A DNA stretch of 64,000 bases. It comes from Thermodesulfovibrio aggregans. GTDB taxonomy: Bacteria > Nitrospirota > Thermodesulfovibrionia > Thermodesulfovibrionales > Thermodesulfovibrionaceae. The stretch is from assembly GCF_001514535.1 (NCBI RefSeq), contig NZ_BCNO01000001.1:1197012-1261011 (forward strand). Reading direction: 5' to 3'. The position numbers were made by a program, and so were the translations under genes. A model generated the notes under the pieces. It was not told where the DNA came from and did no database searches. It saw only the letters and a program-made list of their open reading frames with translations. Each line of letters opens with the position of its first letter. The first letter of the stretch is position 1. This document shows, in pieces, positions 1,612 to 4,950 of this stretch.

Positions 1612-1640
1612 TTGACAAAATCTATAAATAAAGATAAAAT
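1612..1640 (+). promoter_or_regulatory. Promoter of the selenoprotein rhodanese gene
   Basis: TTGACA (1612-1617), a 17-nt spacer, then TAAAAT (1635-1640): a near-consensus sigma-70 promoter. The ribosome site AGGAGGT at 1654-1660 follows, 5 nt before the ATG at 1666. The TTG inside the -35 box is therefore not the start codon. Confidence 0.75.
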
Positions 1641-1665
1641 TATAGAAAAAAATAGGAGGTATTTT

Positions 1666-3018
1666 ATGGGTAAAAAACGAAATGGTTTGTTTTTAGGTGT
1701 TTTTATTTTATTTTTAGCCTTAGCTCTGGTAGCCTCACAGGGTATATCTCAGCAAAAACCCATAATTGCTAAAGGATGCTCGTTACCTGGATGCCATACG
1801 GCAAAAGCAGGGGAACTATGGGGTAATCTAAAAACTGTCTCTGGAAAAGCTGAGATGATTCAGATTGATACAGGTGCTTTGTGGACAGTCAAGTTTGATG
1901 AAAACACGAAAGTAAAGAACTGGAATCAACCTCTTAACAAACTTCCAAAGGAAAAAGAGATAGCTATCACCTATGTAGAGAAAAATGGCGAGCTCTATGC
2001 AACCTTAATTAATGTTAAACCACCGGTTGCCGTTGATCCATCAAAAGTTGTAAAAGTTGCTGAGATGAAAAGAATTTACGATGAAAAGAGTGCTTTGATT
2101 ATTGACTGTAGACCTGCTGGCAGATATAATGAAGGTCATATTCCAGGTTCAATAAATATCTGGTTTGCAGAATTTGATAAACACATTGACAAACTTCCCA
2201 AAGACAAGAATGCTCCTATAGTTTACTACTGTCAGGGTCCTACTTGAGCTCTCACTCCTTCATCTGCTCGGAGAGCAGAAGCTTTAGGTTATACAAATGT
2301 AAAGCAGTTTGTAGATGGAATGCCTGAGTGGAAAAAGCAGGGTTATCCAGTTGCATCAACAGTTAAATATTTACAGGAACTCATAAGCAAAGACATTCCT
2401 CATGTTTTAGTTGATGTAAGACCAAAACAAGAGGCTGAAAAGGAACACATAAAAGGTGCTGTAAATATACCTCTTGATGAGCTTGCAAAGGCTAAGAAAC
2501 TTTTTCCAAAACAGAAAAATGCACCCATAATAATCTACTGCACCAAGGACAATCTCTCTCAAAAAGCCTTTGATATTGTAAGAAAATGGGGTTATATAAA
2601 TACTTCATATCTTGAAGGTGGAATTGATGCATGGAAAAAGGCAGGAGGTGAAGTACTTTCAGGACAGCTAAAAAAGGAAATTGTATATGTACCTAAACCA
2701 AAACCTGGAACAATAGGAATTGAAGAATTTAAGAAAATTACAGGTAAGATTCCACCAAATGTAATAATCCTTGATGTTAGAGATCCTGAAGAGACCCAGA
2801 TGGGAATGATTAAAGGTGCAAAAAACATTCCTGTCAATGAACTCAAGGACAGACTTAATGAACTTCCAAAAGACAAAGAAATTATCGTTCACTGTGCTAC
2901 AGGAATGAGAGCAGAGATGGCTTATAACATCCTTAAAGAAGCAGGATACAATGTAAAATTTCTTGATGCATCAATTCAGATTAAAAAAGGTGGTAAATAT
3001 AAAATTACTGAAAACTAA
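1666..3018 (+). CDS. Exported triple-rhodanese selenoprotein with N-terminal CX4CH motif (in-frame TGA at 2245-2247 read as Sec194)
   Basis: Seen: one frame runs from ATG 1666 to the TAA at 3018, interrupted only by TGA 2245-2247. It encodes 450 residues: a signal peptide (about 1-30), a haem-like CSLPGCH motif (38-44), a small beta-rich domain, then three rhodanese domains (about 130-215, 230-325, 345-440). The TGA falls inside the first active-site loop, YYCQGPT-U-ALTPSSARRAEALGY, and homology to rhodaneses continues unbroken after it. Known: many rhodaneses with this longer loop have a second Cys at this place (C-x-G-x-x-C). Domain 2 has YCTKDN (Cys292) and domain 3 HCATGMR (Cys410). A SECIS-like hairpin follows the TGA. 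Inference: periplasmic sulfur transfer using a Cys189/Sec194 pair. The alternative is two genes split by a nonsense mutation, less likely given the SECIS and the missing second start. It has its own promoter, ribosome site and terminator. Confidence 0.85.
2258..2281 (+). promoter_or_regulatory. Candidate bacterial SECIS element
   Basis: Upper stem CTGCTC (2264-2269) pairs perfectly with GAGCAG (2273-2278) around a GGA loop. A lower stem CTT/AAG (2258-2260 with 2279-2281) is separated by a 5' bulge that contains a U. The first loop G is 22 nt after the TGA. Guanines at the start of a small apical loop, a bulged U below the upper stem and a spacing of roughly 16-37 nt are features of SelB-binding hairpins such as that of E. 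coli fdhF. Confidence 0.7.
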
Positions 3019-3022
3019 TTAA

Positions 3023-3041
3023 AGGGGGCTTTATGCCCCCT
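3023..3041 (+). terminator. Terminator after the rhodanese selenoprotein
   Basis: A 7-bp stem AGGGGGC/GCCCCCT with a TTTAT loop, followed by the pyrimidine run CTCTCTGTT. It lies 4 nt after the stop codon and isolates this gene from the cytochrome gene, which has its own -10 box. Confidence 0.7.
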
Positions 3042-3060: not shown

Positions 3061-4950
3061 ATGCCTTTCAAATTAGGTAAAATAAGTGACCTTGCATCCC
3101 CTCTTACAGTAACTTTATTTTTTCTTCAATTCATACTAATTACGGGTTTTCTTGGATATCAATATTATATGGATTCATCTGAAAGTTGTATTAACTGTCA
3201 TGGTTCAGAGGAGAAGATGAAAGAATTCGGTTATCCTCAGTTTTACGTTACCCTTGAGGATGTAAGAAAAGGCACAGGACATAAAACAGTTCAATGCAGG
3301 GACTGTCATCTTGGAAATGGAAGAGCATGGGATAAGGAGAGGGCACATAAGGGAATGTTAAAGGCTATTTTTGTAAATGAGAGTGCAGAGCCTGTTGACA
3401 GAAAGAAAATTTACACTAAAGAGGAAACAGAGTTAAATAAAATCATACCGGCTGGCGAAAATTCACTATTTGAACTTCTACCAAAGAAAAGAGAAAATGG
3501 AGAGATTTCCCTTCATCCTCAGGTGCGAAATATTCTCTGGCATGACAGAAATCCAAATGACTTTAATTTTGACCCGAAGATAGCAGAGAAGACCTGTGGC
3601 AAAAGAGGATGTCACACTGAGGAGCTAAAACAGTTTAAGAACACCATAATGGGAGCAAATTTTCGTCAAAGAACAATGCGAAGCTGGCTTGAACCTTATG
3701 GACCTCATAACTGCGGACCATCTTTTGCAGACCTACCACCGGCAGAGGTTTTAAAGACTTCAGGATTTGATTTTACAAATACGGAAAAAATAAGAAAAGA
3801 GATAAATTTGCCATTTACGGATGAGCAGGCAATAGCCAAGCAGAGACTTTGCAATGTATGTCATGCAGGATGTCTTGACTGTCACTATGCACCAAATAAA
3901 GATAAAGGTTCACACTCTTTCATAAAAGTGCCTGATTCCTACAGTTGCATGGGAAGGGGAAGGGGTAATTCAGTATGTCATACAGGTTCAGGCCATTCAA
4001 GAAGAGGTGAGACTTATATTGGTAAATTTTATTCCATACCTCAGGGGAGAAAGCCGGATGTTCATTTTCAAAAAGGAATTCACTGCGTAGAATGTCATCC
4101 CACAGGTAAAAGAGGAATGGGGGATATGCAAAGAAAGGCAACCTGTGGAGACTGCCACATTGAAATAGAGAAAGCCCACGCAAAGTCAATTCATAAGAAT
4201 CTTACCTGTACAGCCTGTCATGTAACAGAAGCTGGTGGATATCAGATAACTGTATGGGGGAAAGGATTTATTGGAGAAAAACCAAATCCATTTAAAAAAT
4301 ACTCTCTCTATTATGGGATTCAAAAACCTCTCATTTTAATGAAAGACCAAAGGGGTATCTGGTTTCCTGTAAAAATATTTCCTCACATTGTGGGAAATAT
4401 AGAGAAAGATGTGCCAGCAACAGGAATTAAGTTCAGATGGGAGAAGGGACAGACAAGGGATATGTATGCCATAATAGGAACTTTTGATGGACTGCCATCT
4501 GCCAATAAACATTTAGCATGGTTACAGATTGAAGAGGTATCCCATCCATTTGGAAAAGCAAGAGATTGTAAAAGTTGTCACCGCAGTAGGCAGATTTCCG
4601 TATCTGAGTGGCAGTATGAAGATATTCAGGGTGCAGAGCCGTTCAGAGGAGGATACCGAATAGTTGCCGATGAAAGAGGTTTGAGACTTGAAGACTTCTG
4701 GCACAGTAATATAAAAGTTCTGCCCGGATTTGAGATATCTGACTTTGCTTCATGGATTTATCTTAAGGATAAGTGGTTTATAAAAGGAGATTTTTCAATA
4801 AAAGTAGATGGCAAAAAATATCTTTACTATGAAAAGCTCTACAGAGATAATCTTGATAAAATAAAAAGGCTTGAAAGTTTGAGAAACAACTCTCAGGAAA
4901 TGAAAAAAATAAAGGCAATTCTTATGCATAATCCGGATGCGAAAATTTAA
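3061..4950 (+). CDS. Membrane-anchored multihaem cytochrome c, about ten haem sites
   Basis: A 629-residue protein with one N-terminal transmembrane anchor (about 14-34), NapC/NirT-like in layout, and a large periplasmic part. Eight CXXCH haem motifs are visible (Cys43, 79, 264, 271, 342, 362, 383 and about 514). A CX4CH (CGKRGCH, 179-185) and a possible CX9CH (Cys296/Cys306-His307) bring the total to as many as ten. The last 110 residues carry no haem motif. It probably passes electrons between the quinone pool and a periplasmic reaction. Its position after the rhodanese gene suggests sulfur-compound reduction or oxidation, but the substrate cannot be read from the sequence. No Shine-Dalgarno; a -10 box lies 5 nt upstream, so the mRNA is probably leaderless. 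Confidence 0.85.
   Translation: MPFKLGKISDLASPLTVTLFFLQFILITGFLGYQYYMDSSESCINCHGSEEKMKEFGYPQFYVTLEDVRKGTGHKTVQCRDCHLGNGRAWDKERAHKGMLKAIFVNESAEPVDRKKIYTKEETELNKIIPAGENSLFELLPKKRENGEISLHPQVRNILWHDRNPNDFNFDPKIAEKTCGKRGCHTEELKQFKNTIMGANFRQRTMRSWLEPYGPHNCGPSFADLPPAEVLKTSGFDFTNTEKIRKEINLPFTDEQAIAKQRLCNVCHAGCLDCHYAPNKDKGSHSFIKVPDSYSCMGRGRGNSVCHTGSGHSRRGETYIGKFYSIPQGRKPDVHFQKGIHCVECHPTGKRGMGDMQRKATCGDCHIEIEKAHAKSIHKNLTCTACHVTEAGGYQITVWGKGFIGEKPNPFKKYSLYYGIQKPLILMKDQRGIWFPVKIFPHIVGNIEKDVPATGIKFRWEKGQTRDMYAIIGTFDGLPSANKHLAWLQIEEVSHPFGKARDCKSCHRSRQISVSEWQYEDIQGAEPFRGGYRIVADERGLRLEDFWHSNIKVLPGFEISDFASWIYLKDKWFIKGDFSIKVDGKKYLYYEKLYRDNLDKIKRLESLRNNSQEMKKIKAILMHNPDAKI

Follow-up and report, generated by a model that had tools for sequence, protein, structure and literature searches.

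The locus analysed here raises a simple question: are two adjacent open reading frames two genes, or are they one gene in which a TGA is read as selenocysteine (Sec), and what might the product of such a gene do? It lies in a 64-kb stretch of DNA, which we call the window. Standard ORF calling places one frame at 1612-2247 (211 aa) and another at 2320-3018 (232 aa). Read through its sole internal TGA (codon 194, 2245-2247, forward strand), however, the sequence from 1666 to 3018 on the same strand is a single frame of 450 codons plus a stop, of which the two called ORFs are the halves. This bears out the original prediction, which had described a 450-residue frame interrupted by that TGA alone, likely to be split by gene callers, with Cys189 and Sec194 five residues apart. 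The ATG at 1666 is preceded, at a distance of 6 nt, by the Shine-Dalgarno sequence AGGAGG (1654-1659, forward strand) and, further upstream, by a sigma-70-like promoter match (TTGACA-17-TAAAAT, 1612-1640, forward strand) that agrees with 11 of 12 consensus positions and is to be read as a consensus match only. Elsewhere in the window TGA serves as an ordinary stop, terminating 16 of the 43 long frames, so that the genetic code is unaltered and a reassigned codon can be ruled out. Of the in-frame TGAs in these 64 kb, that at 2245 alone is flanked on either side by long free coding sequence.

The complete set of genes expected of a selenoprotein-making bacterium, selA, selB, selC and selD, is found in the 2.0-Mb genome to which the window belongs and which its named close relatives place in the genus Thermodesulfovibrio (Nitrospirota): SelA, SelB and SelD each score above cut-off, and a tRNA-Sec with anticodon UCA scores 77.4 bits. 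SelD carries a Sec of its own, with an in-frame TGA at GUAAK, a position (GUxxK) that we take to be the known Sec site of this protein. Relatives of the gene occur in 12 of the 16 genomes of the genus, the window's own included, and, counted at E below 1e-50, in 59 of 396 sampled Nitrospirota genomes (about 15%). Among 71 aligned sequences, residue 194 is encoded by TGA in 58, by a Cys codon in 12 and by a Trp codon (TGG) in one, a distant relative (L135 in G038). Within the genus, the TGA is kept in eight genomes besides the window's own, and Cys stands at residue 194 in two congeners (G012 and G006). The original prediction had named a genome without Sec machinery, homologues that all end at this point, or a TGT or TGC misread as TGA, as grounds for abandoning it. 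Instead, the machinery is present, the homologues run on through TGA or through Cys at the identical position, and the recurrence of TGA in independently assembled genomes excludes a read error.

The TGA forms co-occur with SelA, which is encoded in 50 of the 52 genomes with TGA forms versus 174 of the 396 Nitrospirota genomes overall (hypergeometric p 8e-18, a value that ignores relatedness); of the two TGA genomes without it, one (G220) has a tRNA-Sec and the other (G093) is 74% complete. Both SelA and any detectable tRNA-Sec are missing from one genome with a Cys form (G193). At least seven changes between Sec and Cys at residue 194 are implied by a maximum-likelihood tree, and these comparisons delineate a family that is phylum-wide in Nitrospirota, with an evolving Sec/Cys position. 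Several further observations concern individual members. A single genome (G295) holds both a Sec copy and a closely related Cys copy (L073, L128), and some genomes, for example G029, G124 and G251, contain beside the main form a member of a divergent clade of paralogues (L129, L131, L132, L133 and L134) whose motif is CxxxxUGMSPHF. In another congener (G013) the gene is reduced to an eroded remnant (L156, about 2215-2520), in which residues 17-55 abut residues 360-425 alongside a cytochrome fragment, and which is a case of natural loss. Viral contigs yielded zero relatives of the selenoprotein, and plasmids only generic rhodaneses, none of them spanning 80% of the query.

Beyond the codon itself, the RNA that follows it carries a signal of its own. 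A 7-bp hairpin, UCUGCUC-GGA-GAGCAGA (2263-2279, forward strand; offsets 18 to 34, counted from the first UGA base), has the features by which bacterial SECIS elements were judged here (PMC1088965), namely a stem-loop directly after the UGA and a small, G-containing apical loop, which within the genus is GGA or GUA. Across the 58 Sec sequences the six common pairs of the stem are conserved at 93-100%, and compensatory changes on both sides turn C-G to U-A, G-C to A-U and U-A to C-G. Compared with synonymous shuffles, the median z is -1.9 in Sec forms versus -0.7 in Cys forms. The window's own hairpin is no more stable than its synonymous shuffles (p 0.14) because the encoded amino acids favour the hairpin, and folding of the single sequence over 46 nt from the UGA gives z = 0.10; thermodynamic stability alone is thus no evidence here, and it is conservation and covariation that count. 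Among the Cys forms, the hairpin is broken in G012 and G006, weakened in G193 and still present in G339, G367 and G261, the last of these outcomes being expected if the conversions to Cys are recent. Synonymous variation, a measure independent of folding energy, reaches its minimum within the genus (first 380 codons) in an 11-codon stretch that starts right past the UGA.

These results leave little room for the simplest reading of the locus, namely two separate genes or a pseudogene, with translation ending at the TGA and a second ORF beginning at ATG 2320. While this reading matches standard ORF calling exactly, it is contradicted by the phylum-wide conservation of the TGA, by Cys at the identical column in homologues, by SECIS covariation together with SelA co-occurrence, and by the position of the TGA within the first rhodanese domain. 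Moreover, dN/dS past the UGA is 0.025-0.03 against the three closest relatives and equally low before it, a mark of strong purifying selection on the downstream part of the protein; a truncated protein followed by dead sequence cannot explain such values. We therefore rejected the split-gene reading as extremely improbable. That the two ORFs are one gene, whose UGA at 2245-2247 is decoded as Sec by SelA, SelB and tRNA-Sec with the aid of the hairpin at 2263-2279, is close to certain from the comparative sequence evidence.

The predicted selenoprotein opens with a hydrophobic export signal of about 25 residues (1666-1740, forward strand; predicted helix at residues 3-25), from which we infer with good support that it is exported. 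The CX4CH motif noted in the original prediction is indeed there, at residues 38-44 (1777-1797, forward strand), and its meaning can now be made more precise. In a protein with an export signal, CXXCH normally marks a c-type heme site, with CX4CH as an accepted variant. C38, C43 and H44 are invariant across 47 sequences, and the motif reads CXXCH outside the genus and G029 and CX4CH within the genus; the region is absent in a few divergent members (the G150, G177 and G154 copies). Being invariant, and CXXCH in most relatives, the motif probably serves as a c-type heme site; the protein, which at sequence level has the export signal and conserved motif of a c-type heme protein, very likely carries one heme there. 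A single such motif may, on the other hand, bind heme without any role in electron transfer. After the motif comes an OB-fold domain (1807-2025, forward strand; AlphaFold model pLDDT 86.5), to which CusF (Foldseek E 2e-4) and SilF are the nearest structures. With the full model, Foldseek gives low TM-scores of about 0.2, and similarity is claimed at domain level only; the metal-binding methionines of CusF are not obvious in the OB domain.

The rest of the protein is made of rhodanese domains. PF00581 matches with 199 bits, above the gathering score, in three stretches, and it is matched in all 53 family members examined. Domain 1 (2038-2355, forward strand) contains the catalytic Cys189 (2230-2232) and Sec194, domain 2 (2356-2670, forward strand) is probably non-catalytic, and domain 3 (2713-2985, forward strand) contains the loop CATGMR with C410. 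Across the alignment of the 53 sequences, C189 and C410 never vary, at least 90% have Sec or Cys in column 194, and no conserved Cys was found in domain 2. By gathering score and catalytic Cys loop alike, the protein falls within the rhodanese superfamily. The three rhodanese domains of the original prediction thus stand as three Pfam stretches, only two of which, domains 1 and 3, are likely to be active, and we infer with good support that the live sites are C189/U194 and C410. Within the active-site loop U194 is the sixth residue, a place taken by Arg in domain 3. In one relative (L136 in G209, 183-1082) the catalytic Cys189 is itself replaced by Sec, which together with Sec194 gives UxxxxU; the gene is interrupted further on.

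The surroundings of the gene offer a possible electron partner, a 629-aa multiheme c-type cytochrome (3061-4950, forward strand) that adjoins it throughout the genus and has nine heme motifs in relatives. Among the Nitrospirota loci compared, however, this adjacency is not conserved outside the genus, three congeners (L153, L154 and L155 in G001, G002 and G014) have the multiheme cytochrome without the selenoprotein gene, and the two genes are separated at 3023-3041 by a strong hairpin (GGGGGC) followed by a T-rich tail, a terminator-like element that may end or attenuate transcription. The partnership is accordingly uncertain, that is, possible but not established. On the other side lie two divergent neighbours identified by Pfam as single-domain rhodaneses (1016-1483 and 528-998, both on the reverse strand). 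Across the phylum, no conserved gene neighbourhood was found beyond the genus. Genes for sigma-54 activators stand beside several copies of the selenoprotein gene (L090, L096 and L099), and in L096 a cytochrome with eight heme motifs lies just downstream as well; as members of a large generic family, these activators were discounted as conserved neighbours.

With regard to function, our preferred reading, which may well be right but is far from assured, is that of a periplasmic redox sulfurtransferase acting as a persulfide/polysulfide reductase in an anaerobe that metabolises sulfur. Cys189 would accept sulfane sulfur from polysulfide, thiosulfate or a persulfide carrier, the formation of a Cys persulfide being standard rhodanese chemistry. 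Sec194, in the same loop, would attack this persulfide, releasing sulfide and leaving a Cys189-S-Se-Sec194 selenylsulfide, the formation and turnover of which would involve two electrons per turn. Re-reduction of this bond would fall to the attached heme, fed by multiheme cytochromes, or to a thiol partner, and domain 3 would hand on or take up sulfur. A broader proposal takes the family, with c-type heme, CusF-like OB domain and Cys-x4-Sec rhodanese on one polypeptide, to be an uncatalogued, phylum-wide group of heme-wired periplasmic seleno-persulfide reductases; this is possible, if doubtful.

The same selenoprotein could also run in the oxidative direction or act as a carrier, oxidising sulfide or thiols with electrons leaving via the heme, or shuttling between thiol-disulfide and persulfide states without being a net reductase. 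We regard this as rather unlikely. Three rhodanese domains do suggest a sulfur relay, the three-domain proteins YnjE and EanB are Foldseek neighbours, and single-domain rhodanese genes adjoin; yet the Cys-x4-Sec pair fits persulfide reduction at least as well, and sequence cannot decide the direction. Unlikely, too, is a role in reducing selenium or tellurium oxyanions or peroxide rather than in transferring sulfur. The Ext cluster of Geobacter, implicated in selenite/tellurite reduction, includes ExtH, a 49-kDa rhodanese-like protein clustered with multiheme cytochromes (PMC5877670), and the cytochrome next to our gene weakly matches the ExtN/ExtO and NrfH models. The ExtN/ExtO matches, however, score about 27 bits where the cut-off is 200, the selenoprotein of the Ext cluster is ExtKL and not the rhodanese (PMC5877670), and outside the genus the surroundings of family members showed no conserved multiheme cluster.

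Since standard annotation splits the gene at the TGA, a family present in about 15% of the sampled Nitrospirota is probably recorded mostly as halves. The family would connect the use of selenium with sulfur chemistry in the periplasm and, probably, with electron transfer through heme, and a heme-wired seleno-persulfide reductase, if true, would be a new type of enzyme in sulfur cycling. The natural Sec/Cys pairs, including the two copies within one genome, provide material for asking why Sec is kept, and the three congeners that lack the gene are natural knockouts for comparison.

How does the family relate to proteins already described? YnjE of E. coli and EanB of Chlorobium are alike in their multi-rhodanese architecture, at about 15-18% identity, and to our knowledge have neither Sec nor a heme motif. 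A rhodanese-like selenoprotein, WP_010941598.1, which we take to be a Geobacter sulfurreducens protein, shares the PF00581 domain. It represents form 1 (UxxS; PMC13188914, PMC9312934) of the five forms listed in a 2026 review, UxxS, UxxG, CxU, UxxG and UxxxxU (PMC13188914). Its UxxS corresponds to the URLS, UALS or UAMS of most relatives, the motif within the genus being UALT, and, compared by motif only, form 1 of Geobacter and the Nitrospirota proteins may belong to one family. The rhodanese part of TsoB (NF045694, UxxxxU) aligns with domain 1, with a spacing equal to that of C189/U194 and a motif also seen in one relative (G209). TsoB, however, is a DsbD-type fusion, whereas the family described here combines heme, OB fold and three rhodaneses, and the model was rejected (92.1 versus 805 bits, only domain 1 covered). 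The rhodanese-related selenoprotein family NF041203 (rhodanese_LYCAU, form 3) likewise aligns with domain 1, but it is a single domain of 126 positions with CxU, and it was rejected at 94.9 versus 115 bits, Sec standing here at Cys+5 and not at Cys+2. None of the NCBIfam models searched names the window protein, and no paper on heme, OB fold and Sec-rhodanese together was found in a literature search mostly outside subscription journals. Rhodanese selenoproteins as such are already known, as is the presence of heme and Sec in one protein, ExtKL. In Geobacter, one cluster encodes a 49-kDa rhodanese-like protein, ExtH, and a Sec-containing multiheme cytochrome (PMC5877670), so that heme and Sec meet in the cytochrome ExtKL; here, with no cluster in common, both are placed in the rhodanese protein itself, the heme by prediction.
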